Source of the DNA: Candidatus Sulfopaludibacter sp. SbA3
Lineage (GTDB): Bacteria > Acidobacteriota > Vicinamibacteria > Vicinamibacterales > UBA2999
DNA: 36,334 nucleotides
Direction of reading: 5' to 3'
Assembly: GCA_945903265.1 (NCBI GenBank)
Contig: CAMDNQ010000028.1
Coordinates: forward strand, 1 to 36,334
The translations under genes and the position numbers were made by a program. The notes beneath the pieces are model-generated. The model saw nothing but the letters and a program-made list of their open reading frames with translations, did not search any database and was not told the DNA's origin. Numbering within the stretch: position 1 is the stretch's first letter; the number at the start of each line of letters is the position of its first letter. Positions 11,201-32,581 of the stretch are shown here, in pieces.

Positions 11201-13508
11201 GGTGACCAGTTCCGGCGCGGCCTTCACGTGGTCGGACAACAGCCGCGAAAACCGGCTGACGCCATTTGCGAACGACCCGATCTCGGACCCGACGTCTGAA
11301 GCGATCTATCTGCGCGACGAAGACTCCGGAGCCGTGTGGGGAGCCACACCCGCGCCGCTTCCACGCCGTGCCGACGGCGGACGCTGGGTCGTGCGGCACG
11401 GAGCGGGCGTGACGCGGTATCAGCACGCCGTCGCCGGCATCGAGCAGGAACTGGCGGTCTTCGTGGCGCCGGACGCTCCGGTCAAGTTCGCGATGCTCAC
11501 CATCGCGAATACGTCACAGGTGCAGAGGCGGCTCAGCGCGTTCGGCTACGTGGAATGGTGTCTCGGGCCGCCGCGCGCCGGCGAGCGCCGATTCGTCGTC
11601 ACGGAAGCGCATGACGAGACCGGCGCGATTCTCGCGACCAACGCGTACAACACGGAGTTCCGCGACCGGGTCGCCTTCTGGCAGGCGTCCGAGCGGCCGC
11701 TGGCGTACACGTGCGACCGCGCGGAGTTCATCGGCCGCAATCGCTCACTGGGCCGGCCGGCGGCGCTCGTGCGCGAGCGCCTCATGGGACGGAGCGGGGC
11801 AGGACTCGACCCGTGCGCCGCACTCCAGGTCGCTCTCACGATTGAGCCGGGCGCGTCGCGTCGCGTCGCGTTTGTGCTCGGACAGGGTCGGGACAGGGCG
11901 CAGGCGCTCGAGCTGATGGCGCGCTACGCGAACGTCGAGTCGGCGGACCACGAGCTGGCCGGCGCGCAGCAGCACTGGGACAAGATGCTGGGCACGATTC
12001 AGGTGCGCACGCCGGACGATTCCTTCGACCTCATGGTCAACCGGTGGCTGCCGTATCAGTCGCTCGCATGCCGCGTCTGGGCACGCAGCGGACCGTATCA
12101 GCCGGGTGGGGCGTTCGGATTCCGCGATCAGCTCCAGGACGTGATCTCGCTCATCTACGCACGACCCGATCTCTGCCGGGAGCAGATCCTTCGCGCGGCC
12201 TCGCGGCAGTTCGTCGAAGGCGACGTGCAGCACTGGTGGCATCCGCCGAGCGGACGCGGCACGCGGACGCGCTGCTCCGACGATCTGCTGTGGCTCCCGT
12301 ACGCGGTGGCCGGCTACATCTCGCGTACGGGTGACGAGTCCATCCTGGACGAACAGGTGCCCTTCCTCGAAGCACCGCGGCTCGAGCCGGGACAGCAGGA
12401 GACGTACATCCTTCCGCGCGTGTCCGGCGAGAGCGGCACCGTCTTCGAGCACTGCATCCGCGCGATTGCCGCGGCGTCCAATTACGGCGTGCACGGCCTT
12501 CCGCTGATCGGGTCTGGCGACTGGAACGACGGCATGAACCGCGTGGGCCACGAGGGACGCGGGGAGAGCGTGTGGCTCGGGTGGTTCCTTGTCACCGTCC
12601 TCAAGGAGTTCGGCGCGATCTGCGGCAGGCGGGAGCGCGCCGACCTCGTGCGGCGCTACCGCAACGACGCGGATGCGCTGACAGGGATGCTGGAACTGTC
12701 GTGGGACGGCGGCTGGTATCGCCGCGCGTATTTCGACGATGGCACCCCGCTGGGATCGGCGCAGAACGAGGAGTGCCGCATCGATTCGCTGACCCAGTCG
12801 TGGGCCGTCCTCTCGAACGCGGCGCAGCCGCGGCGCGCGGCGCTGGCGATCGAAGCGGTCCGCGCGCATCTCGTGCGCCGGGAGGCGCAGCTGGTGCTCC
12901 TCCTCACGCCCCCGTTCGATCGGATGGCGCACGATCCCGGTTACATCAAGGGGTATGTGCCTGGTGTGCGTGAAAACGGTGGACAGTACACCCACGCGGC
13001 GCTCTGGACGGTGATGGCGCTCGGGCGTCTCGGGCTCGGCGACGAGGCGATGGAGCTGTTCCACATGCTCAATCCGATCAACCACATGCGGACGCCGGAA
13101 GACGTGGACCGCTATCAGGTGGAGCCGTATGTCGTCGCCGCTGATGTGTACAACCATCCGATGCACGTGGGGCGCGGCGGGTGGACCTGGTACACGGGAT
13201 CGGCCGGCTGGATGTATCAGGCCGCGATCGAGGGGCTGCTCGGACTACGGCGCCGTGGCGCGACGTTCAGCGTCAGTCCGTCCGTGCCCGCGATGTGGCA
13301 GACCTATTCGATCGAATGGGTGGTCGGCGGGTCGCGTTACGTCATCACGGTGACCAATCCCGAGCACCGGTGCCGCGGCGTCGCGGCGGCGACGCTCGAC
13401 GGGGCCGCCGTGGATCCGCAGGCGATCCCGCTCGTAGACGATGGCCAGACGCACGAGGTCGCGATTGTCCTGGGGGAGTCCCGGACCGCGCGGCGCGCGG
13501 CGGTCTAA
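5220..13508 (+). CDS. ndvB: Cyclic beta-1,2-glucan synthase (NdvB/ChvB/Cgs type)
   Basis: About 2,762 residues, the size of Cgs enzymes. Order: N-terminal helical region; membrane segments (about 358-410); GT84 glycosyltransferase with D574-S-D576 and Q720-H-R-W723-IRGDWQ; further membrane segments (about 760-815 and 892-940); the glucoamylase-like domain from about residue 970, which in this family closes the ring (GH189); two GH94-type beta-sandwich regions (around 1470 and 1970); and a C-terminal GH94 phosphorylase-like domain with D2434-W-N-D2437-G, which sets chain length. The enzyme makes cyclic beta-1,2-glucans from UDP-glucose at the inner membrane for osmotic adaptation and host or surface interaction. 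The first listed codon is GTG 5220, but family-like sequence ([14 protein letters not shown]) continues upstream in frame, with no ATG, GTG or TTG before the in-frame stop at 5088. The true start is therefore unclear. No NdvA-type exporter is nearby. Confidence 0.93.
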
Positions 13509-20845: not shown

Positions 20846-20852
20846 CTCTGTA

Positions 20853-20900
20853 GGGATCAGGGATCGGGGATCAGATTCCTGATCCCTGATCCCTGATCCC
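20853..20900. terminator. 22-bp heptamer-built hairpin, probable bidirectional terminator
   Basis: Each arm is three copies of a 7-base unit (GGGATCA/GGGATCG on the left, 20853-20874; TGATCCC on the right, 20879-20900). The arms pair over all 22 positions with one G-T wobble, around loop ATTC. It lies exactly between two converging genes, 7 bases after one stop codon and 3 bases from the other. GGG tracts recur every 7 bases, as in the arrays near and inside dnaX. Confidence 0.75.
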
Positions 20901-20903
20901 TCT

Positions 20904-21752
20904 CTAAAACCCCAACTCACTTCCTGCGTTATTTCGTCCCGCTGGCCACCACGTCTGGCCGGCCAGTCCGTGGTGGCGGAAGTTCCGGATCATCGCCTGC
21001 GTCGACGGGTCGAGCAGAAAGCGCTCGAAGCCGCGTGCGCCGGCCTCGTCGACTCCCGCAATCCGCGACGGATTCACCACGATCGACACCATGACGCGGG
21101 GCAGGAGGGGATCGTTCAGGACAAGCGCTTCCATGCCGAGCGGACGGCCCTGCAGGCGGCGCTCCTCCAGCAGCCGGACGAAGGGCACCAGCCCCCACAG
21201 CGTATAGGCGCCGCGTTGCGCCGCCATGTCGATGGCGGTCTGGTCGCGAAGCTGGAGGTCCACCTGCCAGCCGCTTTTCGCGGGTGAGCCCGCCGCCCGC
21301 CAGAGCACATCGGCCAGGTAGCGTTCCGTCGGCGCGTTGTTGACGAAAAACTCGCCACCCCGTTCGCTGATACGGCGAATGGCGTCGGCGGCGTCGGTGG
21401 ATCCGCGAATGCCGGCGGGATCGTGCGCGGGTCCGATCAGCACCGCCTGGTTCGAGAAAATCATCCTGGGCCAGCGGCCAAGTCCGTCGGTCATGAAGGC
21501 TTCCGTCCCCTGGTGCCCGTAGTGCGCGATGACGAGGTCGGCCTGGCCGGCGCGAGCCACGTCGAAGGCGCCTTCCGTAATCTGCAGCGTCACGCGATAG
21601 CCCGTGCCGCGCTCGAAGACGGCGATCAGATGCTCCAGCAGCACGTCCGGCGTGATGACGACCGCGATGCGAAGCACGCGCGTCTGTGCCTGCACTGGCG
21701 CCGCGAGGAGAAGAGTGATGGCCGACACCGCTGCCCAAACTGCTACACGCAT
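20904..21752 (-). CDS. Periplasmic binding protein, TupA/tungstate-like (orphan)
   Basis: 282 residues from ATG 21752, which has GGGAGG upstream. The signal peptide is MRVAVWAAVSAITLLLAAPV with likely cleavage after AQA. The mature chain follows the tungstate/molybdate binding-protein pattern: IAVVITPDVLLEHLIAVFERGTGYRV, ARAGQADLVIAHYGHQGTEAFMTDGLG, then IGPAHDPAGIRG, QRGAYTLWGLVPF and IVVNPSRIAGVDEAGARGFERFLLDPSTQAMI. Several ligand-side Ser/Thr positions usual in TupA (TTTS near the start) are changed (VVITPD), so the ligand may differ. No TupB or TupC permease or ATPase genes are present. Its neighbour is a two-component system on the same strand 60 bases upstream, so a sensing role is possible. 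Confidence 0.75.
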   Translation of the reverse strand: MRVAVWAAVSAITLLLAAPVQAQTRVLRIAVVITPDVLLEHLIAVFERGTGYRVTLQITEGAFDVARAGQADLVIAHYGHQGTEAFMTDGLGRWPRMIFSNQAVLIGPAHDPAGIRGSTDAADAIRRISERGGEFFVNNAPTERYLADVLWRAAGSPAKSGWQVDLQLRDQTAIDMAAQRGAYTLWGLVPFVRLLEERRLQGRPLGMEALVLNDPLLPRVMVSIVVNPSRIAGVDEAGARGFERFLLDPSTQAMIRNFRHHGLAGQTWWPAGRNNAGSELGF

Positions 21753-21812
21753 GTGTGCCTCCCTGTGTGGCACACCCTATCGAAGGCTGGCGCGAACCGC
21801 TTGAAGGTTGGG

Positions 21813-22517
21813 TCAGGATCCGGTGAGATTTGCGTTAAGCCGGTAGCCCACGTTGCGCACGCTCAGGATGCACGCGGGATGCTCGACGTCCTCCTCGATT
21901 TTCCTGCGGAGCGCCGCGACGTGGGTATCGACCGTCCGGTGAGTGACGTAGACGTCCTCGCCCCAGACCTGCTTCAGGAACTCGTCACGCGTCACCACAT
22001 CTCCCGCATGCTTCACGAGAAGAACGAGGAGTTGAAACTCGGTCTGCGTCAGTTGAAGTTCGCGCGTCTCCTTGTAGGCGCGGTGCTTCCGCAGGTCCAC
22101 CTTGATGGGCGGCGCTTCGAGCACGTCCCCCGTCGGGGGGACGGCGGAACGCCGCAGCACCGCGCGAATCCGTGCGACGACTTCCGCCAGGCTCAGCGGC
22201 TTGGTGACGTAATCGTCGGCGCCAAGCCCCAGTCCGCGAATCTTGTCGGCTTCCTGATCGCGAGCGGTGATCAGAATGATGGGCGTCCGCACGCCCTGCG
22301 CGCGCGCCTGCTCACAGATCTGGAAGCCATTGGGTCCGGGGAGCATGACGTCGAGCAGCACCAGATCGCAGCGCGATCGCAGGATCGCGTCGAGTCCGGC
22401 GCCGCCGTCCGCGGCCAGCTCAACCTGGAAGCCCTGGAACTCGAGCTCGTCCTTCAAGGCGAGCCGCAACCCTGGCTCATCCTCCACGACGAGAATCCGT
22501 TTCGTCACGCCGGTCAT
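21813..22517 (-). CDS. OmpR/PhoB-family response regulator
   Basis: 234 residues. Receiver domain: E12-D13, phospho-acceptor D56 in LVLLDVMLPGPNG, T84 in LITAR, and K106 in YVTKPL. DNA-binding winged helix (about 135-230): ELQLTQTEFQLLVLLVKHAGDVVTRDEFLKQVWG, then RTVDTHVAALRRKIE and VRNVGYRL. Its ATG overlaps the stop codon of the sensor kinase (ATGA on the minus strand), so the two are co-translated. The binding-protein gene follows downstream and may belong to the same transcript. Confidence 0.95.
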   Translation of the reverse strand: MTGVTKRILVVEDEPGLRLALKDELEFQGFQVELAADGGAGLDAILRSRCDLVLLDVMLPGPNGFQICEQARAQGVRTPIILITARDQEADKIRGLGLGADDYVTKPLSLAEVVARIRAVLRRSAVPPTGDVLEAPPIKVDLRKHRAYKETRELQLTQTEFQLLVLLVKHAGDVVTRDEFLKQVWGEDVYVTHRTVDTHVAALRRKIEEDVEHPACILSVRNVGYRLNANLTGS

Positions 22518-23992
22518 CCTTCGGCGGGCGGCAGCCGCAGCGAGAACCGGCTGCCCCGGCCCGCCTCGCTGTAGATGGAGATTGAGCCGCGGTGGCGATC
22601 CATCACGTGGCGCACGAGCGACAGGCCGATACCCACGCCCTCGGCGTTCAACGATGCCGCCTGCCGGCCGCGGTAGAACTTCTCGAAGATCTTCGTTCGT
22701 TCTGACGGGAGAATGCCGATGCCGCTGTCCTCGACGTCAACGAAGTGCACGCCGTCGGTCGAGCCGCATGCCACGCGGATCGGGGCGTCGGGCGGCGAAT
22801 ACTTGGCGGCGTTGTCGACGAGGTTCTGGATGGCGTGCGCCAGAGCCGTACGGTCCGCACGCACCCAGAGCGGCTGTGACGGGCCCTCCGCGAGCTGGAG
22901 GCGATCCGTCCGCATCGTCGTGCGGCTCGTCGAAACCGCCTCGCGTGCGGTTTCGGCCAGATCGATGCGATCGAACGAATACGTCTTCTGTCCCTCCTCG
23001 ATCAAGGCAAAGTCCAGCAGCCGCGTGACGAGGTTGCTCAGCCGCCGTGCGTCCTGCCCGATGATGGAGTGATATTCACGCCGGCGATCCGGATCGTCCA
23101 CCCGATCGAGGCGTTCGGTCAGCGCCAGGATCGACGCAAGTGGCGACCGGAACTCGTGTGAGACGGCCGCCACGAAATCACTTCGCAAGCGTGCCAGCTT
23201 CGACTCGTGGGACACCGCTCGGTACATGAACGCGCTCCCGAGCACGGTCACGACGATGAGCAGCCCCATCGAGTAGGGGAAGAGCTGTTCGCGCAGGATG
23301 CCGGCCGCGGGCGCCGGTCGATCCTCGAAGACCACTTCGAAGAACGGAAACCCGGTCAGTCCTATGCTGTCGGTCGGCCGGCTCGAGGGACGCTGGGCGG
23401 CAATCCAGGCGGTCGCCGTAAACGGCTCCGCGGCGGTAATCGCGGCGAGCCGCGCATTCGCATGTTCGAGGACCCGTTCGACGTCCACGACGTACCCGTC
23501 GGGATCCAACGGTGGTTGCACGACGAGCGCCGCCAGTCGGGGAAAGTACTGAGCGCCCGCATTCCGGCCGGCCGCGGCGTCGCGTCGGAATGCCTGCACG
23601 CGCGGAAAATACTGATTGACCACCGTGTCGCGCGTTGGTGGCAGCGAGGGAGGGCCGCTGTCGAACGGGCGCTGCTCGGGCGAGTCGTCTGCGGACAGGG
23701 CCAGCTCGAAGTCGGGGAAGACAATCCGGCCGGCGTCCGCATGGAAGTGAAGGAGGGCCGTGGCGCGCGCCGAGCCAGGGCCTGCGGCAAAGAGCCACCC
23801 GGCGAGGTCGTCATTCAGCTCGGTCACGACGTCGCGCTGCCGTGCGGCAATCTCGTACTTGGCACGGATGCCTTCGCCGCGCATCGCGCGGACGACCAGC
23901 AGACCGAACACCGTCACGGGCAGCACGACCATCAGGCCGAAAAGCAGCGCCATCCGCCGATGCCGATGTACCGCCTCGCGAAGATGTCGCAC
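22514..23992 (-). CDS. Membrane sensor histidine kinase
   Basis: 492 residues from GTG; an alternative ATG at codon 14 begins exactly at the first membrane helix. TM1 is at about 14-35 and TM2 at about 242-260, enclosing a periplasmic sensor domain of about 200 residues without a recognisable fold. A short linker leads to HisKA with H279 (AVSHEFRSPLASI). The ATPase domain has NLVDNAAKYS, DVEDSGIGI, IFEKFYRG and GVGIGLSLV. It pairs with the overlapping OmpR-type regulator. It is divergent from msrB, with only 58 bases between, so the promoters must be closely packed. The signal sensed is unknown. Confidence 0.93.
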   Translation of the reverse strand: MRHLREAVHRHRRMALLFGLMVVLPVTVFGLLVVRAMRGEGIRAKYEIAARQRDVVTELNDDLAGWLFAAGPGSARATALLHFHADAGRIVFPDFELALSADDSPEQRPFDSGPPSLPPTRDTVVNQYFPRVQAFRRDAAAGRNAGAQYFPRLAALVVQPPLDPDGYVVDVERVLEHANARLAAITAAEPFTATAWIAAQRPSSRPTDSIGLTGFPFFEVVFEDRPAPAAGILREQLFPYSMGLLIVVTVLGSAFMYRAVSHESKLARLRSDFVAAVSHEFRSPLASILALTERLDRVDDPDRRREYHSIIGQDARRLSNLVTRLLDFALIEEGQKTYSFDRIDLAETAREAVSTSRTTMRTDRLQLAEGPSQPLWVRADRTALAHAIQNLVDNAAKYSPPDAPIRVACGSTDGVHFVDVEDSGIGILPSERTKIFEKFYRGRQAASLNAEGVGIGLSLVRHVMDRHRGSISIYSEAGRGSRFSLRLPPAEG

Positions 23993-24050
23993 GGTGCCGG
24001 GAGTATAGTCGTCTCAGTACGGACGCGCGTGAAGGTTGGGTGAAGAAGCG

Positions 24051-24452
24051 ATGAAGAAAGACCAGTTTCCGGTCGAAAAAACCGACGACGAATGGCGGAA
24101 GGCGCTCACACCGCAGCAGTACGCGGTGCTCAGGGGGCACGCTACTGAGCCTCCCGGCTCATGCGCGCTCCTCACCGAACATCGCGCGGGTACGTTCAGC
24201 TGTGCGGGGTGCGGGCAGCAGCTCTTCGTGGCCGATCGCAAATTCGAAAGCGGCACCGGCTGGCCCAGCTTCTTCGCGCCGCTCGAAGGCTCCATCGAAA
24301 CCACCGTAGATCGCACCTTTGGTATGCAACGTACGGAAGTCCACTGCAGCCGGTGCGGCGGTCACCTCGGCCACGTGTTCGACGATGGCCCCCCGCCAAC
24401 AGGCCTTCGCTACTGCATAAACGGGATTGCGCTGAACTTTCAGCCCGCCTGA
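24051..24452 (+). CDS. msrB: Peptide-methionine (R)-S-oxide reductase MsrB
   Basis: 133 residues from ATG 24051 (GAAGAAG upstream). It reduces methionine-R-sulfoxide in oxidised proteins. Zinc ligands are C51 and C54 (FSCAGCG) and C99 and C102 (VHCSRCGG). The substrate-side motifs SGTGWPSF and GHVFDDGP are present, and the catalytic Cys is C122 in LRYCINGIALNF. There is no signal peptide, so it is cytosolic. It is full length for a stand-alone MsrB and no msrA is attached. It is divergent from the sensor kinase. Confidence 0.97.
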   Translation: MKKDQFPVEKTDDEWRKALTPQQYAVLRGHATEPPGSCALLTEHRAGTFSCAGCGQQLFVADRKFESGTGWPSFFAPLEGSIETTVDRTFGMQRTEVHCSRCGGHLGHVFDDGPPPTGLRYCINGIALNFQPA

Positions 24453-24461
24453 GGCGACTCG

Positions 24462-24480
24462 GGCCAGGCACGGCCTGGTC
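24462..24480 (+). terminator. Candidate terminator after msrB
   Basis: GGCCAGGC (24462-24469) pairs with GCCTGGTC (24473-24480), 8 pairs with one wobble and loop ACG. It starts 10 bases after the msrB stop and is followed by GTTGCATTTGTT, a weak T-rich stretch. Confidence 0.45.
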
Positions 24481-24516
24481 GTTGCATTTGTTCCATCCCA
24501 ATAGAGGGATCTGGAA

Positions 24517-24687
24517 ATGGCTGAGCGGAAATATCCGCGGGACGCACGCATAGAAGAGATCATCCGTGCGTTCGAGCGGGAACGCGAAACCGCCCACGAT
24601 CTCCATCGCCGCCATACCGATCGGACGCGTGATTCACACCAGCGCGACCAGCAACTCTTCATCGAACGCCGCCAGAAACCGCGCTAG
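24517..24687 (+). CDS. Small highly charged hypothetical protein (56 residues)
   Basis: ATG 24517 to TAG 24685-24687, preceded by GAGGGA at a good distance. The product is mostly Arg, Glu, Asp, His and Gln (MAERKYPRDARIEEIIRAFE and onward), with one amphipathic helix (about 9-26) and no Cys, membrane segment or signal. It lies between msrB and the lysine operon on the same strand. Its composition suggests a nucleic-acid or protein-binding helix, but the family is not recognised. The ribosome site is the main support. Confidence 0.5.
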   Translation: MAERKYPRDARIEEIIRAFERERETAHDLHRRHTDRTRDSHQRDQQLFIERRQKPR

Positions 24688-24741
24688 CGCGCCTCGCACG
24701 TTCGCACACCCGCACCGTCGCACCGGTGCTCGTCCGTTTGA

Positions 24742-24747
24742 TATGAT
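24742..24747 (+). promoter_or_regulatory. Candidate -10 element of the asd-lysC-dap operon
   Basis: TATGAT (one mismatch to TATAAT) ends 11 bases before the asd ATG. A start of transcription about 7 bases downstream would leave a leader of only 4-5 bases, and no ribosome site is seen before asd. No convincing -35 hexamer is visible at the usual distance. Confidence 0.4.
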
Positions 24748-24758
24748 CTCCACTTCAT

Positions 24759-25913
24759 ATGCAGGTAGGACTCATTGGCTGGCGCGGAATGGTCGGCTCC
24801 GTGCTCGTGCAGCGGATGCGCGAGGAGCGCGATTTCGACCTCATCGACCCGATTTTCTTTACCACGTCGCAGGCGGGCGCCGCGGCACCCGCTATTGGCA
24901 AGACTGCCGGGAAGACGCCGCCCCCCCTCAAGGACGCACGTGATATCGCCACGCTCATGGGCGCCGATGTCCTGATCTCCTGCCAGGGCGGCGAGTACAC
25001 GGCCGAGATCTATCCGAAGCTGCGCGCCGCCGGCTGGACCGGCTACTGGATTGACGCGGCGTCCACGCTGCGCATGAAAGAGGATGCCGTCATCATCCTG
25101 GACCCGGTGAACCGGCAGGTGATCGACACGGCGATCGATGCGGGCGTCAACGCGTTCATCGGCGGCAACTGCACCGTCAGTCTGATGTTGATGGCGATGG
25201 CGGGGCTCTTCAAGGAGGGCCTGGTCGAGTGGGTCAGCCCGATGACCTACCAGGCCGCGTCGGGCGCGGGCGCCAGGAACATGCGCGAGCTCCTGTCACA
25301 GATGGGCGTGGTGCACGCGGCCGCGTCGGCGCGTCTCTCGGATCCGGCCTCGGCGATCCTGGACATCGACCGCACCGTCACCGAGACGCTGCGCGGCAGC
25401 GCGCTGCCGACACACGAGTTCGGGCATGCGCTGGCGGGCAGCCTCCTGCCGTGGATTGACAAGGATCTCGGCAACGGCCAGAGCAAGGAAGAATGGAAGG
25501 CGATGGCCGAAGGCAACAAGATCCTCGGCCGCGATCGCGCCCCGATCCCGATGGACGGGCTCTGCGTCCGCATCGGCTCGATGCGGTGCCACAGCCAGGC
25601 GCTCACGATCAAGCTGACGCGCGACCTCCCGTTGCAGGAGATCGAATCGCTGCTCGCGGGCGCGCACGAGTGGGTCCGCGTGGTGCCGAATGACAAGGAG
25701 GCCTCGCTGCGCGAACTCACGCCGGCCGCCGTGTCGGGGACGCTGAAGGTCCCGATCGGCCGGCTGCGCAAGCTGGCGATGGGACCGGAGTATCTGACCG
25801 CATTCACCGTCGGCGATCAGCTGCTGTGGGGCGCGGCCGAGCCGCTGCGCCGCATGCTGCGGATCCTCATCGGCGTCGGAGCGAAGGCGCGTACCACCGC
25901 GACCGTCGCGTAA
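24759..25913 (+). CDS. asd: Aspartate-semialdehyde dehydrogenase
   Basis: 384 residues, with the length and sequence of the proteobacterial-type Asd. It reduces aspartyl-phosphate with NADPH to aspartate semialdehyde, the branch point to lysine/diaminopimelate, threonine and methionine. The NADP-binding start is [11 protein letters not shown]. The catalytic Cys is C138 in [15 protein letters not shown], and the substrate-side segment [16 protein letters not shown] carries the conserved His. It is the first gene of a six-gene same-strand operon; the lysC start codon lies 4 bases after its stop. No Shine-Dalgarno sequence precedes ATG 24759. Confidence 0.97.
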
Positions 25914-25917
25914 GGCG

Positions 25918-27273
25918 TTGGTCGTCCAGAAATTCGGCGGCACCTCTGTCGCCGATCCTGCCGCTGTTCAGCGACTCATCGAGATCGCACGCTCCGGCCG
26001 TGGCGATGCCCGCGGCCCCGTCGTCGTGGTGTCGGCGCTGAGCGGCGTCACCGACGTGCTCCTCACCATTGCCGCCGAAGCGGGCGCGTCGCGGACGGAG
26101 ATCGCGCTCGCGCACGTCGACCGCCTTCGCGAGCGGCATCTGGCCATGGTGCAGGCGCTCGTCGCCGACCGCGACCGTGGCGAGCTGACGCAGGCTGTCG
26201 AGGGGCAGTTTACGGAGCTCGCGGCCGTCGTCCAGGCGCTGGCCGTGCTCCGGGAAGTATCGGTGCGGACGCTCGACGTCATTGCGGCGATGGGCGAGTT
26301 GCTCAGCTCGCGCATCATCGCCGCGGCGCTCAGGCACGCCGGGCTGCCAGGCGAATGGGTGGATGCCCGCCGGGCCGTGGTGACCAACGACGACCACACG
26401 CGCGCCGTTCCCCGCATGCGCGAGACGACAGCCGCGATGCGCGCCATGGTGACCCCGCTCCTCGATGCCGGCCGCGTGCCGGTGATGGGCGGGTTCGTCG
26501 GCGCCACCGCAGAAGGCCATACGACGACGCTCGGGCGGGGCGGATCGGACTACTCGGGGGCGATCGTCGGCGCCGCGATCGGCGCATCCGAGATCCAGAT
26601 CTGGACCGATGTGGACGGCATGTTGACGGCGGATCCGCGCCTGATTCCACAGTCGAAGCTCGTCCCGCACCTCTCGTTCGCCGAAGCGGCGGAGCTCGCA
26701 TATTTTGGCGCGAAGGTGCTGCACCCGAGTACGATCCATCCCGCCGTCGAGCGGAATATTCCGGTGCGCATCCTGAACTCGCGGAAGCCCGAGGGTCAGG
26801 GCACGCTGATTACCGAGAACCCCGACGCTCAGGGCGGGCCGCTCACGGCGATGGCGGCCAAGCGCGACCTGACGGTGGTGGACATCACGTCGAGCCGCAT
26901 GCTGATGGCCTATGGATTTCTGCGGCAGGTCTTTGAAGTGTTCGAGCGATTCCAGACGGCGGTCGACGTGGTGACGACATCGGAAGTGAGCGTGTCGGTG
27001 ACGGTGGACGACAGGCGGCACCTCGATGCGATCGTCGAGGCGCTGTCGGAGTGCGGCGCAGTCTCGGTGGAGCCCGACATGGCGCTGCTCTGTGCGGTGG
27101 GCGATCGGCTGCGCGCCGATCCGGCCATCGCCGCGCGCGTCATCCGGGTGCTCGAAGAAGTGCCGCTGCGCATGATCTCGCAGGCCGCCTCACGGCGTAA
27201 TATCACCGTCATCATGCGGCAGACGGACCTGCCGCACGCCATGCATCGACTTCACGAGGAGTTCTTTCAGTGA
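25918..27273 (+). CDS. lysC: Aspartate kinase (monofunctional, LysC type)
   Basis: 451 residues from TTG 25918, chosen because it places the invariant KFGGTSVAD directly at the N-terminus and because AAGG lies just before it. It phosphorylates aspartate with ATP, the first step of the pathway. The kinase domain has TLGRGGSDYSGAIVGAA, DVDGMLTADPR and EAAELAYFGAKVLHP. The C-terminal third holds tandem ACT domains (VVDITSSRMLMAYGFLRQVF and TTSEVSVSV), which in E. coli LysC bind lysine for feedback inhibition. There is no homoserine dehydrogenase fusion. The stop codon overlaps the dapB start (GTGA). Confidence 0.96.
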   Translation: MVVQKFGGTSVADPAAVQRLIEIARSGRGDARGPVVVVSALSGVTDVLLTIAAEAGASRTEIALAHVDRLRERHLAMVQALVADRDRGELTQAVEGQFTELAAVVQALAVLREVSVRTLDVIAAMGELLSSRIIAAALRHAGLPGEWVDARRAVVTNDDHTRAVPRMRETTAAMRAMVTPLLDAGRVPVMGGFVGATAEGHTTTLGRGGSDYSGAIVGAAIGASEIQIWTDVDGMLTADPRLIPQSKLVPHLSFAEAAELAYFGAKVLHPSTIHPAVERNIPVRILNSRKPEGQGTLITENPDAQGGPLTAMAAKRDLTVVDITSSRMLMAYGFLRQVFEVFERFQTAVDVVTTSEVSVSVTVDDRRHLDAIVEALSECGAVSVEPDMALLCAVGDRLRADPAIAARVIRVLEEVPLRMISQAASRRNITVIMRQTDLPHAMHRLHEEFFQ

Positions 27274-27941
27274 AATTGCTCCTCGTCGGCTACGGCAAGA
27301 TGGGGCGGCTCATCGACGAGATGGCGCGGTCGCAGGGCGCCGACGTCACCGGCCGCGTCGATCTGGGTACGGGTGACTGGTCCGCGGACGCGGACGTCGC
27401 GATCGACTTTTCGACCGCCGAGGCACTCCGCGGAAATTTCACCCACTATACGGAGCGAAAGCTCCCGGTCGTCATCGGCACGACCGGATGGTCGGCACAT
27501 GCCGCGGAGCTGCGCGAGCAGTCTGAACGCGCCGGGCTGGGCGTCGTGGCCGCGGCAAACTTCTCCGTTGGCGTCAACCTGTTCGAGCTCATAGTGGCCG
27601 AGGCTGCGCGGCTGATGCAGGCGCAGCCGCAGTACGCGGCGTGGATTCACGAGGCGCACCACGCGGCGAAGCGCGATGCGCCGTCGGGCACGGCGCTGGT
27701 CCTGCACGATGCGATGGTCGAGGCGTCGTTCGGGAGACCGATCGATGTCTCCTCGACCAGGGCCGGATCGATCCCCGGCATTCACACCGTCGGATTCGAC
27801 TCGCCGTCGGATACGATCGAGCTGACCCACACGGCACGCGATCGGCGCGGATTCGCGGCAGGGGCCCTGATGGCGGCGCAGTGGATCCAGGGACGCCGCG
27901 GGTGGTTCACAATGAAGGACGTGCTCAGGGGGACAGCATGA
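27270..27941 (+). CDS. dapB: 4-hydroxy-tetrahydrodipicolinate reductase
   Basis: 223 residues from GTG 27270, which overlaps the lysC stop by 4 bases. It reduces the DapA product to tetrahydrodipicolinate using NAD(P)H. The dinucleotide motif is GYGKMG (7-12). The DFST and GTTGW segments line the cofactor site. The signature EAHHAAKRDAPSGTA (128-142) provides the catalytic His130/His131 and Lys134. It is shorter than the E. coli enzyme (273), like the compact DapB of several other phyla, with an N-terminal shortening between the first Rossmann strands. The stop codon overlaps the dapA start (ATGA). Confidence 0.96.
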   Translation: MKLLLVGYGKMGRLIDEMARSQGADVTGRVDLGTGDWSADADVAIDFSTAEALRGNFTHYTERKLPVVIGTTGWSAHAAELREQSERAGLGVVAAANFSVGVNLFELIVAEAARLMQAQPQYAAWIHEAHHAAKRDAPSGTALVLHDAMVEASFGRPIDVSSTRAGSIPGIHTVGFDSPSDTIELTHTARDRRGFAAGALMAAQWIQGRRGWFTMKDVLRGTA

Positions 27942-28843
27942 CGCGCACTCCATTCACCGGCGTCGGCACCGCACTCATCACGCCGTTCAAGAAGGACGGG
28001 TCGCTCGACGAAGCCGGCATCCGGCGGCTTGTGCGCCGCCAGATCGATGCGGGGATCCATTTCGTATCGCCCTGCGGCACCACCGGCGAAGCGCCCACGC
28101 TGAGCGCTCGCGAGAAGGTGCGCGTGTGCGAGCTTGTCGTCGACGAAGTGGCCGGCAAGGTGCCGGTGCTTGCTGGCGCCGGCGGGTACAACACCCGGGA
28201 AGTGATCGAGCTGATTCATGAGCTCGAACGCATCAAAGTCGACGGCATCCTCTCCGTCACGCCCTATTACAACAAGCCGACCCAGGAAGGCCTGTACCAG
28301 CATTACAAGGCGATTGCCGAGAGCACCTCGCTCCCGATCGTGCTGTACAACGTGCCCGGCCGCACCGGCGTGAACCTCGAGCCGGCCACGGTCGTCAGGC
28401 TCTCCGGCATCCGCAACATCGTGGGCGTGAAAGAGGCGTCCGGGAACCTGGTGCAGATGAGCGACATCGTCGCCGGGGTGCCGCCCGAATTCTTCCTCGT
28501 GAGCGGCGACGATCCGATTGCGGTGGCCGTGATGGCCATTGGCGGCCGCGGTCTGATTTCGGTCGCGTCGAATGCCATCCCCTCGGAAATGGTGCAGGTG
28601 ATGGAGCTCGCCGAGAAGGGCGACTTCGCGGGAGCCCGGAAGCTGCACGGCTGGCTGCTGCCGTTCCTCGAAGTCAACTTCATCGAGGCGAACCCGATCC
28701 CGGTGAAAGCCGCGATGGCCGCCATGGGTCTCGTCGAGGAGACGTACCGGCTGCCGCTCGTGCCGCCGGGCGCCGCGGCGCGCGACAGGATCATGCACGT
28801 CCTCCAGGATCTCAAGCTGCTCGGTTCGGCCGTCCGCGTGTGA
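27938..28843 (+). CDS. dapA: 4-hydroxy-tetrahydrodipicolinate synthase
   Basis: 301 residues from ATG 27938. It condenses pyruvate with aspartate semialdehyde, committing carbon to diaminopimelate and lysine. It is a TIM barrel of the DapA/NAL family: GTTGE (47-51), PYYNKPTQEG, Y137 in VLYNVPGRTG with R142, and the Schiff-base Lys K165 in VGVKEASGN. Full length. The reading frame stays open well upstream, but the ATG fused to the dapB stop is the right start. Its own stop overlaps the dapD GTG. Confidence 0.97.
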   Translation: MTRTPFTGVGTALITPFKKDGSLDEAGIRRLVRRQIDAGIHFVSPCGTTGEAPTLSAREKVRVCELVVDEVAGKVPVLAGAGGYNTREVIELIHELERIKVDGILSVTPYYNKPTQEGLYQHYKAIAESTSLPIVLYNVPGRTGVNLEPATVVRLSGIRNIVGVKEASGNLVQMSDIVAGVPPEFFLVSGDDPIAVAVMAIGGRGLISVASNAIPSEMVQVMELAEKGDFAGARKLHGWLLPFLEVNFIEANPIPVKAAMAAMGLVEETYRLPLVPPGAAARDRIMHVLQDLKLLGSAVRV

Positions 28844-29682
28844 CGCTCGATCAGGAGATCACCTCGCTGTTTGAACAAGGCGGCGCTGCGCCGAAAGACG
28901 CCGCGCGCGCGGCCTTCCTGCGCTTGCGCGACGAGCTGGCGGCGGGACGCGTGCGCGCCGCTGAACCGGATGCGTCCGCGCCGACCGGATGGCGCGTCAA
29001 CGTCTGGGTGAAGCAGGGCATCCTGCTCGGCTTCCGTGTCGGCGACCTCGCCGACATGACGGTCGACCACGGACGCTGGCCGTTCTTCGACAAGGACACG
29101 ATGCCGCTGAAGAAATTCACCGCGGCCAGCGGCGTCCGCATCGTGCCGGGCGGATCGTCCATTCGCGAAGGCGCCTATCTCGCGCCCGGTGTCATCTGCA
29201 TGCCCCCGATGTACATCAACGTCGGCGCATGGGTTGGCGAGGGGACGCTGGTCGATTCCCACGCGCTCGTCGGTTCGTGCGCGCAGATCGGCGCGAAGGT
29301 GCACCTGAGCGCGGCGGCGCAGATCGGCGGCGTCATCGAGCCGGTGGGCGCGATGCCGGTGATCATCGAGGACGAGGTCCTGGTCGGTGGCAACTGCGGT
29401 GTCTACGAAGGCGCCATCGTGAAGCGCCGCGCGGTGCTCGCGTCGGGAACGATCATCACCGGCTCGACGCCGATATACGACCTGCCCAACAGCCGCATCA
29501 TCGCGCCCGAGAAGGGACAGCCGCTCGTCGTGCCCGAAGGGGCCGTCGTCGTGCCCGGCGCCCGCGCGGTGACCGTCGGCGCCGGCAAGGAGTGGGGCCT
29601 GTCGCTCGCCACGCCCGTCATCGTGAAGTATCGCGACGAGCGGACGGATGCCCGCACCGAGCTCGAGCGATGGATCCGCTAA
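28840..29682 (+). CDS. dapD: 2,3,4,5-tetrahydropyridine-2,6-dicarboxylate N-succinyltransferase
   Basis: 280 residues from GTG 28840. It transfers succinyl from succinyl-CoA to tetrahydrodipicolinate, so this organism uses the succinylase branch. The N-terminal helical domain (1-100) ends in GRWPFFDKDTMPLKKF. The left-handed beta-helix of hexapeptide turns follows: VPGGSSIREGAYLAPGVI, MYINVGAWVGEGTLVD, GSCAQIGAKVHLSAAAQIGG, then VGGNCGVYEGAIVKRRAVLASG. The length matches the DapD family. It overlaps dapE by 13 bases. Confidence 0.96.
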   Translation: MTLDQEITSLFEQGGAAPKDAARAAFLRLRDELAAGRVRAAEPDASAPTGWRVNVWVKQGILLGFRVGDLADMTVDHGRWPFFDKDTMPLKKFTAASGVRIVPGGSSIREGAYLAPGVICMPPMYINVGAWVGEGTLVDSHALVGSCAQIGAKVHLSAAAQIGGVIEPVGAMPVIIEDEVLVGGNCGVYEGAIVKRRAVLASGTIITGSTPIYDLPNSRIIAPEKGQPLVVPEGAVVVPGARAVTVGAGKEWGLSLATPVIVKYRDERTDARTELERWIR

Positions 29683-30686
29683 GGGCGCCACTGGATCCGG
29701 TCGCGCTCGCTCGCGCCCTCATCGACATCGATTCGACAACCGGCCGCGAGGGAGAGCTCGGCTCATGGCTCGCGGGGTTTCTGCGGGAGCGCGGCTATCG
29801 CGTCGACGAGCAGCCGGTATCGGAGGGGCGCTTCAACGTGCTGGCGATGCTCGACGCGGCGCCGCTGGTCGTGCTGTCCACGCACTTCGACTGTGTCCCG
29901 CCGTTCTTTCCGGGCCGTGAGGAGCGCGGGCTGCTGTTTGGACGCGGGTCGTGCGATGCGAAGGGCATTCTCGCCGCGCAGGTCGCGGCGGCCGAACGGC
30001 TGCGCGCCGGCGGTGAAACCCGGATCGCCCTTCTGTTTGTGGTGGGCGAGGAGCGGGGGAGCGATGGCGCACGCGTGGCCAACACACGCGCGCCGGCCGG
30101 CGTCCGTTACCTGGTGAACGGGGAGCCGACCGACAACCGGCTCGGTCTCGCCACGCGGGGCGTGCTGCGCGTGCGTCTCAAGGCGCGGGGCCGCGCCGCT
30201 CATTCCGCGTTCCCCGAGCTGGGCGAATCGGCCATCGACAAGCTGCTCGACGCGCTGATGGTGATTCGCGGCATCCAGCTGCCCGACGATCCGATCCTCG
30301 GGCGCACGCATTACAACGTCGGCCTGATTGACGGCGGTGTCGCGCCCAACGTGGTGTCGTCGCAGGCCTCCGCGGAGCTGCTGTTCAGGATCGTGGGCGA
30401 TGCAGCGCCCGTTCGCGAGGCGCTCGGACCCATTGAAGGCATTGTGGACGTGGAGCACGTCCTCGACATTCCGGCAGTCCGGATGCACACGGTGCCCGGA
30501 CTCGAGACCGCGGTCTTCCCGTACACCACCGACGTCCCGCTGCTCGACAGGTGGGGAACGCCGCTGTTATGCGGTCCCGGCTCCATTCACGTTGCGCATA
30601 CAGATGAGGAACACGTCGCGATCGACGAGCTCCAGGCGGCCGTCGGTCTCTACGAGCGCCTCGTGCTGGAACTCCTGCACCTGTAG
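29670..30686 (+). CDS. dapE: Succinyl-diaminopimelate desuccinylase (M20 metallopeptidase family)
   Basis: 338 residues from ATG 29670 inside the dapD end. It is a di-zinc M20 enzyme: H72-F-D74 in STHFDCVPP, D96 in GRGSCDAKG, and E127-E128 in VVGEERGSDG. The dimerisation domain occupies about 160-270 (RGVLRVRLKARGRAAHSAFPE), and a late metal His lies in GSIHVAHTDEEHV. M20 members are hard to separate by sequence alone (DapE, ArgE, carboxypeptidase G2). The position directly after dapD makes succinyl-diaminopimelate desuccinylase the best call. The aminotransferase (dapC) and epimerase (dapF) are not in the window. Confidence 0.85.
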   Translation: MDPLRAPLDPVALARALIDIDSTTGREGELGSWLAGFLRERGYRVDEQPVSEGRFNVLAMLDAAPLVVLSTHFDCVPPFFPGREERGLLFGRGSCDAKGILAAQVAAAERLRAGGETRIALLFVVGEERGSDGARVANTRAPAGVRYLVNGEPTDNRLGLATRGVLRVRLKARGRAAHSAFPELGESAIDKLLDALMVIRGIQLPDDPILGRTHYNVGLIDGGVAPNVVSSQASAELLFRIVGDAAPVREALGPIEGIVDVEHVLDIPAVRMHTVPGLETAVFPYTTDVPLLDRWGTPLLCGPGSIHVAHTDEEHVAIDELQAAVGLYERLVLELLHL

Positions 30687-30713
30687 CGGTGCGTACGCTA
30701 AACTGACTTTTTT

Positions 30714-30841
30714 GGTGAGCCGCACCGCGGCCCGGACCCTGTGCGACTTCAGCCTGCGAACCGCGTCAGGGCCGGAAGGCAGCAGCGCTAAGTAGACCCT
30801 GCGGTGTGTTTCAGGTGCATCGGGTCGCGGTGGGGCTCACC
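30714..30841 (+). ncRNA. ffs: Signal recognition particle RNA (4.5S type)
   Basis: About 128 bases. The closing helix pairs GGTGAGCC at the 5' end with GGCTCACC at the 3' end. The conserved tip has GTCAGG (30765-30770), a GCC-GGAA-GGC tetraloop hairpin (30771-30780) and AGCAGC (30781-30786), the Ffh-binding signature. It is of the short bacterial type without an Alu domain. A T6 run lies just before it. No terminator hairpin separates it from dnaX, so it may be processed from a longer transcript. Its position before dnaX, ybaB and recR matches Bacillus. Confidence 0.95.
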
Positions 30842-30850
30842 AGAAATTCC

Positions 30851-30887
30851 AAATCCCAAAGCCCAAATCCCAAAGCCCACATCCCAA
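30851..30887 (-). repeat. Heptamer array upstream of dnaX (G-tract repeat)
   Basis: Two perfect copies of the 14-mer aaatcccaaagccc (30851-30864 and 30865-30878) plus a degenerate third. CCC tracts fall exactly every 7 bases (30855, 30862, 30869, 30876, 30883). Read on the minus strand this is five GGG tracts with 4-base loops, the textbook form of a G-quadruplex motif. It fills the space between the SRP RNA and the dnaX start. Confidence 0.8.
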
Positions 30888-30895
30888 CGCGGTCC

Positions 30896-32581
30896 ATGTC
30901 CTATCAAGTTCTCGCTCGCAAGTGGCGCCCGCAGCGGTTCGACGACGTCGTCGGCCAGCAGCCGGTCACGCGCACGCTGCGCAACGCGCTTGCCAGCGGT
31001 CGTCTCGCGCACGCGTTCGTGTTCGCGGGACCGCGGGGATGCGGCAAGACGACGACGGCGCGGATCCTGGCGCGGGCGCTCAACTGCGTCAAGGGGCCGA
31101 CGGCGGATCCGTGCGGGGAGTGCGACGCCTGCGTCGAGATTACGCAGGGGCGCGACATGGACGTGCTCGAGATCGACGCCGCGAGCAATACCGGCATCGA
31201 CAACATTCGCGAGGTCGTCATCGCGGGTCTCTCGATTACGCCGGCCCGCGACCGCTACAAGATTTTCATCATCGACGAGGTCCACCAGCTGTCGACCCCG
31301 TCGTTCAACGCGCTCCTGAAGTCGATCGAGGAACCGCCCTCGCACGTCGTCTTCATGATGGCGACGACGGAGCTGCACAAGATTCCCGACACGATTCTGT
31401 CGCGCTCGCAGGTGTTCGAGTTCCGCGCCATCTCGGCGCGGGCGATCGCCGAGCAGCTGCGCACGATTGCCGCCGCCGAGAAGATTGAGGCGTCCGACGC
31501 CGCGCTCGCGCTGATCGCGCGATCGGCCGAGGGCAGCATGCGCGACGCCCAGAGCGCGCTCGACCAGGTCATGGCGTTCGCCGGCGGGCGGATCGCCGTG
31601 GACGACGTGTCGTCGGTGCTCGGACTGGTGGGCCGCGACCTCCTGTTCGAGCTGCTCGAGTCGGTGGTGACGGAGGATGGCCCGCGCGCGTTCGCGCTGG
31701 CGGACCGCGCCATCGAGTCGGGGCATGATCTGCGGCTGGTGTGCCGCGAGCTCACGCGCGTCGTGCGCGACATGATGCTCATCTCGATCGACCCCTCGCG
31801 GGCGGGCGACGGCGAGCTGGCTGAGGACGAGCTCACCAGGCTGCAGGCGCTGGCGCCACAGTTCTCGCGCGAGGATCTCATGCGGGCCTTCGAGCTGCTC
31901 TCGACCAGCGAGCAGGAGATCAAGAACGCATCACAGCCGCGCTATCACTTCGAGATGATGCTCGTCCGCTGGATGCACGTGCGTAAGCTGGTGCCGCTCA
32001 CCGAGCTGATGGAAACGCTCGGACGGGGATCGGCGCTCGCTCCAAAAACCCAACTCCCAACTCCCAAATCCCAAAGCGTCGTCGCGCCAGCCGTGCGCAC
32101 CGCCGCAGCCGCGCCCGCACCTCGCGCTGCCGCACCGCCGGCCGCTCGCACCGTCGCACCGTCCACTCCCTCGGCGCTCAAAGACGCCTTCCTCGCCGAA
32201 ATTCGCCGCGGCAAGCAGATGCTCTACGAGCTGGCGGTCGCGCAGGCGCGTCGCGTGGATGCCACCGACGACACGGTCACGTTCACGTTTCCGCCCAACC
32301 AGAAGGTGCCGCGCGGGCAGCTCGAACAGAATCGCAAGTGGCTCGAGGAGGCGGCACAGCGCGTCGCCGGCCGCCGGATAACGATTGAGATCGTGCAGGC
32401 TGATGTCGAGGCTGCGGCTGTTCCGGCGCAGGCGGGCACGGCCGAACCTGACACTGCGGACGAGAAATCGACTTCGCCGTCCGGCAAGCGTGACTTGAAG
32501 GCCGAAGCGATGGCATCATCCGCCGTCCAGGCCATGCTCGACGTCTTTCCCGCAGAAATCCGAGACGTCGAGGAGATGTAG
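30896..32581 (+). CDS. dnaX: DNA polymerase III subunits gamma and tau
   Basis: 561 residues from ATG 30896 (MSYQVLARKWRPQRFDDVVGQ, the family's usual start). A longer in-frame start at 30806 would lie inside the SRP RNA. It is the clamp-loader ATPase of the replisome: Walker A GPRGCGKT (45-52), zinc Cys C64, C73, C76 and C79, the box DEVH (127-130), and the arginine-finger region LSRSQ (168-172). From about residue 380 a Pro/Ala-rich linker begins with in-frame heptamer repeats (PKTQLPTPKSQ). A C-terminal domain follows (about 430-510, AFLAEIRRGKQMLYE and KVPRGQLEQNRKWLEEAA). No Shine-Dalgarno sequence is visible before the start. It is followed closely by ybaB and recR. Confidence 0.96.
   Translation: MSYQVLARKWRPQRFDDVVGQQPVTRTLRNALASGRLAHAFVFAGPRGCGKTTTARILARALNCVKGPTADPCGECDACVEITQGRDMDVLEIDAASNTGIDNIREVVIAGLSITPARDRYKIFIIDEVHQLSTPSFNALLKSIEEPPSHVVFMMATTELHKIPDTILSRSQVFEFRAISARAIAEQLRTIAAAEKIEASDAALALIARSAEGSMRDAQSALDQVMAFAGGRIAVDDVSSVLGLVGRDLLFELLESVVTEDGPRAFALADRAIESGHDLRLVCRELTRVVRDMMLISIDPSRAGDGELAEDELTRLQALAPQFSREDLMRAFELLSTSEQEIKNASQPRYHFEMMLVRWMHVRKLVPLTELMETLGRGSALAPKTQLPTPKSQSVVAPAVRTAAAAPAPRAAAPPAARTVAPSTPSALKDAFLAEIRRGKQMLYELAVAQARRVDATDDTVTFTFPPNQKVPRGQLEQNRKWLEEAAQRVAGRRITIEIVQADVEAAAVPAQAGTAEPDTADEKSTSPSGKRDLKAEAMASSAVQAMLDVFPAEIRDVEEM
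32043..32076 (-). repeat. Heptamer array inside the dnaX linker
   Basis: CCC tracts recur exactly every 7 bases (32049, 32056, 32063, 32070), and 15 bases (CCCAAATCCCAAAGC) are identical to the array before dnaX. On the minus strand this gives four GGG tracts with 4-base loops. The array is read in frame as PKTQLPTPKSQ within the disordered linker of DnaX. Confidence 0.75.

Follow-up and report, generated by a model that had tools for sequence, protein, structure and literature searches.

Two reports on dispersed heptamer repeats were judged relevant among the matches listed in a literature search that included Acidobacteria and Luteitalea. Rehm et al. 2015 (PMC4692102) described GGGAATC and GGGGAYT heptamer repeats in Xanthomonas and Nostoc, convergent inverted pairs included; where the Xanthomonas GGGNATC repeats fall within 50 bp of a gene, they are antisense when upstream of a start and sense when downstream of a stop. 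MacGregor 2015 (PMC4679880) described TAACTGA direct repeats in Beggiatoaceae, Cyanobacteria, and Bacteroidetes, and noted various repeated heptamers in Microcystis. The heptamer repeats of Xanthomonas, Cyanobacteria, and Beggiatoaceae were described without a known mechanism. The present analysis concerned three heptamer arrays in a 36,334-nucleotide stretch (the window), which was contig 28 of the 3.52-Mb draft genome (45 contigs; here G000) of Candidatus Sulfopaludibacter sp. SbA3, a member of Vicinamibacterales (Acidobacteriota). One array was a hairpin between two convergent genes, one lay between the signal recognition particle (SRP) RNA gene and dnaX, and one was read in frame inside dnaX. 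The window arrays belonged to the known dispersed-heptamer kind, outside the GGGNATC consensus itself; new were (i) the phylum, (ii) differing repeat words at orthologous sites, many of which retain arm pairing, and (iii) many in-frame copies in housekeeping genes. No prior report of these three points was present among the matches listed, which came from open-licence PubMed Central only. The three arrays and the two genes that frame them were as follows:

20852..20901, no strand assigned: inverted GGGATC heptamer pair, with arms 20852-20874 and 20879-20901 and loop 20875-20878.
30849..30887, minus strand: heptamer array in the SRP RNA-dnaX gap, five tracts, CCCAAAT/CCCAAAG on the plus strand (GGGATTT/GGGCTTT on the minus strand).
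32041..32075, minus strand: heptamer array inside dnaX, CCC tracts at 32049-32072, codons 385-393, read as KTQLPTPKSQ.
30729..30829, plus strand: small bacterial SRP RNA (Rfam RF00169, 59.1 bits), given as context.
30896..32581, plus strand: dnaX, DNA polymerase III gamma/tau subunit of 561 aa, given as context.

All three arrays, with their exact 7-base steps, were read directly from the sequence, as the first-pass annotation of this DNA had claimed. The hairpin, which had been placed at 20853-20900, was present with its ends corrected to 20852-20901; it sat between the stop codons of the two convergent genes (20845 on the plus strand and 20904 on the minus strand), was preceded by GTAG at 20850-20853, displayed per strand three GGG tracts spaced 7 bases, and as RNA formed 23 pairs at -47.4 kcal/mol, a stability equalled in 0/200 shuffles. 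It had also been called a terminator: the strong hairpin stood, while the terminator role was unproven, with no U/T tract after either arm and no match there in the consensus terminator scan. The hairpin may serve as an end point or a protective structure for transcripts from the two convergent genes. The gap array lay behind the SRP RNA, had CCC at 30855, 30862, 30869, 30876, and 30883 (spacing exactly 7), and ended its final tract 10 nt short of the dnaX ATG; the dnaX leader was a C-rich RNA with no special structure (z 0.57), and its 37 nt had two matching records in a comparison against plasmids, from Planktothrix and Acaryochloris. The array within dnaX had four CCC tracts (32049, 32056, 32063, and 32070) and stood 9 residues past the end of domain III. 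The 15 identical bases attributed to these last two arrays were found, with two copies of CCCAAATCCCAAAGC in the window (30862 and 32063). The GGGAT-like core ascribed to all three loci did not hold for every unit: GGGCTTT and GGGAGTT also occurred.

Like the GGGNATC repeats (PMC4692102), the arrays of G000 were composed of 7-bp GGG units, dispersed, enriched in intergenic DNA, located near gene ends, and often arranged as convergent pairs: GGGATC inverted pairs in G000 were 12 convergent (two sharing an arm) and 0 divergent. They differed in phylum and in unit, since GGGATCA/G/C and GGGATTT carry AT directly after the G tract and so fall outside the GGGNATC consensus, and relatives of G000 swapped in words without G tracts. 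They also differed in their relation to genes. The intragenic share was 11% and 7% in two Xanthomonas genomes (intergenic 89-93%), so that GGGNATC repeats were rare inside genes, whereas 34 of the 68 G arrays examined in G000 overlapped called genes, an intergenic excess weaker than that of Xanthomonas (PMC4692102). These 68 arrays comprised those of the window, those of a fixed sample, and those of loci fetched for holding arrays, and the set was thus enriched for array-holding loci and no full census. The other 34/68 were intergenic (5/7 in the fixed sample), although intergenic sequence makes up only about 8% of the DNA sampled; 24 of them lay between tandem genes, 10 between convergent genes, and none between divergent genes. 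Within 50 nt of a gene end were 35/44 stop relations and 12/24 start relations. The TAACTGA repeats (PMC4679880) were, likewise, mostly intergenic, with some near starts and a few in genes, but there a single word was favoured in Beggiatoaceae, while here the word differed between genera. TTATCAG/CTGATAA-type units followed dnaX in genome G046.

The abundance of the arrays was far beyond chance. In the 3.52-Mb genome, GGGATCNGGGATCNGGGATC was found at 90 places (51 + 39), and the same GGGATC pattern read backwards at 0. GGGN4 extended to four tracts gave 94 overlapping places spread on many of the 45 contigs; this pattern reads alike in both directions, which leaves its backward control uninformative. 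In 400 kb of G000 taken at fixed intervals, arrays of at least four GGG tracts numbered 7 at period 7 (shuffled mean 0.1), while of the other 11 periods in the range 4-15 nine gave 0, period 12 gave 1, and period 13 gave 2; with the limit lowered to at least three tracts, period 7 was unremarkable (7, shuffled 2.7) beside period 8 (10, shuffled 3.4) and period 5 (8, shuffled 3.1). The first-pass annotation had proposed a genome-wide count against shuffled sequence as a check on a dispersed heptamer family able to occupy 3'-of-gene, leader, and coding-linker positions, and the four-tract counts, far above those of the shuffles, supported such a family. The GGGATC pattern was present in 24/59 genomes searched and GGGATTTGGGATTTGGG in 13/59, the window's genome included, while the backward control (a CTAGGGN heptamer) matched in 4/59; in a 297-genome draw of the phylum, 17 contained the GGGATC pattern. 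The relatives named by means of dnaX were Vicinamibacterales and other Acidobacteriota, mainly metagenome assemblies. Two further observations concerned density: 15 overlapping four-tract GGGATC places on both strands were crowded into about 4.3 kb of G000 (contig C5, 33990-38331), far denser than the rest of the places listed, and the CTAGGGN heptamer formed another family in other Acidobacteriota, with 58 places in G117, 27 in G051, 17 in G065, 16 in G118, and 11 in G063.

Counting was also applied with the unit left free. In the intergenic DNA of 400-kb samples, tandem period-7 arrays numbered 8 in G000 (shuffled 0.0), 5 in G024 (0.0), 42 in G037 (0.1), and 0 in G020, and period-8 arrays 5, 7, 9, and 0, respectively; periods 4-6 gave none in G000, G024, and G020, and a single period-6 array in G037. 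Four of the eight period-7 arrays of G000 contained no GGG (TTGGTGG twice, GTAGTCG, and GTTCGCG). In 1.0 Mb of G037, the 138 kb of intergenic DNA contained 106 arrays and the 852 kb of coding DNA only 6; there were 46 perfect-doublet units, with neither GGG nor CCC in 27 of the 40 units printed; 0.957 of the units had one-substitution neighbours, versus a mean of 0.749 and a maximum of 0.933 for shuffled units. Of the intergenic arrays, 66/106 lay nearest to a stop, at a median of 12 nt, and 40 nearest to a start, at a median of 57 nt. Because many period-7 arrays lacked GGG and CCC, the G-tract arrays were a subset of a broader heptamer class; hairpins were frequent in only part of the genomes. 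Across this class period 7 was kept while the unit was free, and arrays stood near stops, between the SRP RNA gene and dnaX, and in frame within coding sequence.

Orthologous sites were compared as well. Thirty dnaX loci were fetched, of which four had no recognised start and one more, with a 727-nt gap, was excluded from the period count; a strong period-7 array was present in 9/25 usable SRP-dnaX gaps, period 8 in two, period 9 in one, and the other periods from 4 to 12 in none. The words at this site were CCCAAAK in G000 and similar in G014, CGAACTT in G015, GAAGGTG in G041, TGACTTC in G046, CAATCGT in G043, AGAGTTC in G033, and TTTTAAC in G051, while G013 had CCCAAAT and GGGATTT arms. The period score of G015 at first counted an N run as matching, and N was then excluded from both the period count and the arm test; at this locus (L073) the assembly breaks into the N run exactly at the heptamer array, so draft genomes may undercount arrays. 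G037 and G049 are members of one genus. Of 18 gaps around dnaX that are orthologous between them, 9 had arrays only in G037, 0 only in G049, 8 in neither, and the single gap with arrays in both carried differing units (TGATGCC versus TGAGCCC).

For the arm test, 33 stretches were taken, of which 7 under 44 nt were excluded, and the array-bearing gaps used, before or after dnaX, were cut in half; four of the stretches (L141, L146, L148, and L155, from 19 named loci) had been chosen for their arrays and were not copies of loci in the set. In the 16 array gaps, halves from one genome paired better than halves across genomes (mean 13.06 versus 5.55; 0/20,000 permutations), and the signal came from 9/16 gaps with self scores of at least 14.5. 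Scores above chance were likewise obtained for the 10 stretches that lacked a period-7 array (8.55 versus 5.19; 127/20,000), because G011_gap and G033_post held other inverted repeats. Two further records of this region were of note: L155 (JAVEDP010000018.1), from Pyrinomonadaceae and thus outside the order, had an ACTGAGT/ACTCAGT heptamer hairpin before dnaX, and L139 (VFYY01000036.1), titled Acidimicrobiia bacterium, had a dnaX (70% identity) and an SRP-dnaX gap like those of the Acidobacteriota genome G014, which makes it probably a misnamed assembly by sequence likeness.

Arrays were also read in frame within genes. Ten array-bearing proteins of G000 received Pfam labels, namely a RimO-type enzyme, a NuoL-type subunit, an M28 peptidase, siroheme synthase, DnaE (partial), an ABC-F ATPase, a heparinase-like protein, FtsK, a class II ribonucleotide reductase, and a UvrD-type helicase; GGGATC arrays stood in frame in the RimO, NuoL, FtsK, and DnaE genes, some as inverted arms, and the codon score was lower inside the array than in its flanks for 23/26 arrays well within genes. 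The RimO comparison covered 32 genomes, of which 19 were without an anchor (mostly the LLRxNG core) and 13 were retained. In RimO the inverted arms flanked the PLLRSNGEP core, and the stretch between two aligned blocks was 44 residues in G000 versus 18 in PDB 4jc0. Both arms were present in four genera, of GGGATC type in G000 and G027 and of GGGATT type in G015 and G013, while single arrays were found in G003 (5' only) and G031 (3' only). In the 4x4 score matrix each 5' arm scored best with a partner of its own word type; the permutation result of the 13-genome RimO comparison (0/20,000) mainly contrasts arrays with no arrays. Inverted repeats within functional protein genes are likewise known as the coding palindromes of Nematomorpha mitochondria (PMC6649704), but there the arms encode conserved protein and form no heptamer tandems, while here the loop peptides varied between genera. 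Odd peptides such as GIGDQGSGI and PGSRIPDPGS in predicted proteins can accordingly be DNA repeats read through, and the whole-word differences at orthologous sites, often with arm pairing retained, together with the in-frame RimO, FtsK, and DnaE copies, offer a sharp test bed for the origin of the 7-bp length and for the spread of the arrays.

The reading tentatively favoured here, at slightly less than even odds, is that the arrays are a class of dispersed heptamer elements spread by copying between arrays of the same genome and by 7-bp slippage. The class would consist of 7-bp units repeated in short tandem arrays, some of which face each other as two arms, at dozens of loci in a single genome. 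A new copy would arise by short-tract template switching off another array of the same genome, then grow or shrink by slippage in 7-bp steps, and persist where no gene is broken; such spread would require neither a RAYT-type transposase nor a reverse transcriptase devoted to it. The copies in the dnaX leader and linker are probably passengers that the cell tolerates. Template switching is a replication error that creates and mends inverted arms and hairpins (PMC8794818). In favour of the reading are the recurrence of one unit type at many loci of G000, the period of 7 with free units in intergenic DNA, the differing words at one gap, the pairing of gap halves from one genome, the RimO arms that score best within a word type, the excess of one-substitution neighbours and the closeness to stops in G037, and the lack of a PF00078 match in G000, G037, and G049 and of a PF01797 match in G000. 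Several results weigh against the reading. No donor-recipient event was seen, and the copying is something we infer. Unlike what recent copying would lead one to expect of template-switch hairpins (PMC8794818), seventh-base variants were not shared between the arms of a pair in G000 (18,642/20,000 permutations as similar or more), so recent arm-to-arm copying was not seen in that genome. Seven of the 16 array gaps had unpaired halves, the window's dnaX gap among them, in which the array had no inverted partner, and an exact 12-nt inverted partner lay in the gap for only 3/106 G037 arrays. Period 8 exceeded period 7 in G024 (7 versus 5), and G020, with neither, made the trait patchy. The G000 genes were called by an in-house script, on a draft assembly. 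Arm-to-arm template copying as a current homogeniser was dropped as unsupported in G000, the variants being uncorrelated.

Plain local slippage, in which each array is a microsatellite born in place without inter-locus copying and persisting outside genes or in tolerant loops, is unlikely, with a real chance all the same. It agrees with the diversity of units within one genome (the 46 perfect-doublet units of G037), with the free gain and loss of array gaps between G037 and G049, and with the fact that no mobility enzyme was tied to the arrays. It leaves unexplained, however, the 90 GGGATC places against 0 backward in G000, the inverted arms of one word type per genome, and the prevalence of periods 7 and 8 with almost none at 4-6.

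A regulatory G-quadruplex, with arrays kept because four G tracts fold and affect transcription or translation, a role discussed for the GGGNATC repeats (PMC4692102), is distinctly unlikely. The four-tract quadruplex pattern noted by the first-pass annotation in the gap and dnaX arrays did fit, with at least four tracts in each of these two of the three window arrays; (GGGAATC)3GGG forms a quadruplex in vitro that melts at 50.4 C (PMC4692102), and 51/68 G arrays of G000 had at least four tracts, 26 of them exactly four, a peak biased by most loci having been fetched for four tracts or three units. As the basis common to all arrays the quadruplex was nonetheless rejected: the window hairpin had just three tracts on each strand, and GGG/CCC was missing from the four intergenic G000 arrays and 27 printed G037 units given above. 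In addition, the dnaX mRNA carries the C-rich strand of the array, so an RNA quadruplex cannot form from it there, and the strand rule of Xanthomonas was unclear within 50 nt of genes in G000 (18 sense against 17 antisense near stops; 7 antisense against 5 sense near starts).

A process that generates 7-nt tandems regardless of sequence, often with an inverted partner, and acts in Vicinamibacterales and their neighbours through a copying enzyme of its own or a replication step, would be a long shot. If true, it would be a genome-wide repeat class free of transposase and reverse transcriptase, keeping the length of 7 and, where present, the arm pairing, while the word is replaced whole between genera, both at gene ends and inside essential genes.

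Repetitive extragenic palindromes (REPs) or miniature inverted-repeat elements moved by a transposase such as RAYT are a very improbable source. REPs are small palindromes 3' of genes, a number of them within genes for replication and repair (Di Nocera et al. 2013; PMC3733652), and likewise here hairpins stood near stops in tandem and convergent gaps, with some arrays in replication and repair genes; GTAG adjoined 7/68 arrays of G000, the window hairpin among them. Unlike REP/RAYT systems (PMC3733652), G000 had tandem heptamer arms and no constant GTAG/CGTC tag (CGTC was near 0/68 arrays), and the heptamer tandem changed wholesale between genera, as a fixed element would not. The Y1 transposase domain (PF01797) had no match in G000 at E <= 0.001, while 42/59 genomes had one and G037 had four, weak or fragmentary; reverse transcriptase (PF00078) had none in G000, G037, and G049, with a match in 22/59 genomes. 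A link of the arrays to either enzyme was rejected, as neither was found in G000.

E. coli makes gamma near the region after dnaX domain III, and the region past domain III in the relatives was a tail rich in proline and alanine. Ordinary protein evolution of the dnaX array, as a selected proline-rich linker or a programmed site yielding short gamma, is nevertheless barely credible, given (i) linker residues that showed no conservation across 26 aligned DnaX proteins, (ii) CCCAAAT-type DNA that recurred at 14/14 positions in G027, 13 in G000, 12 in G013, and 11 in G022 (25 of 30 loci scored), a period score reached in 0/200 same-codon shuffles, (iii) disfavoured codons in the array (CCA -0.97, CAA -0.89, and ACT -1.06), and (iv) the other two frames, whose first stops came 102 and 104 codons downstream. 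With these frames open so far, the linker was not frameshift-like, and a programmed dnaX frameshift site was rejected. The linker comparison in related species suggested by the first-pass annotation came out with the heptamer recurring as DNA while the residues were not conserved as protein.

Apart from the arrays, the window contained at 5220-13508 (plus strand) a 2762-aa open reading frame with GH94 supersandwich and catalytic domains, a glucoamylase-like domain, and a weak glycosyltransferase match, which presumably resembles cyclic beta-glucan synthases.

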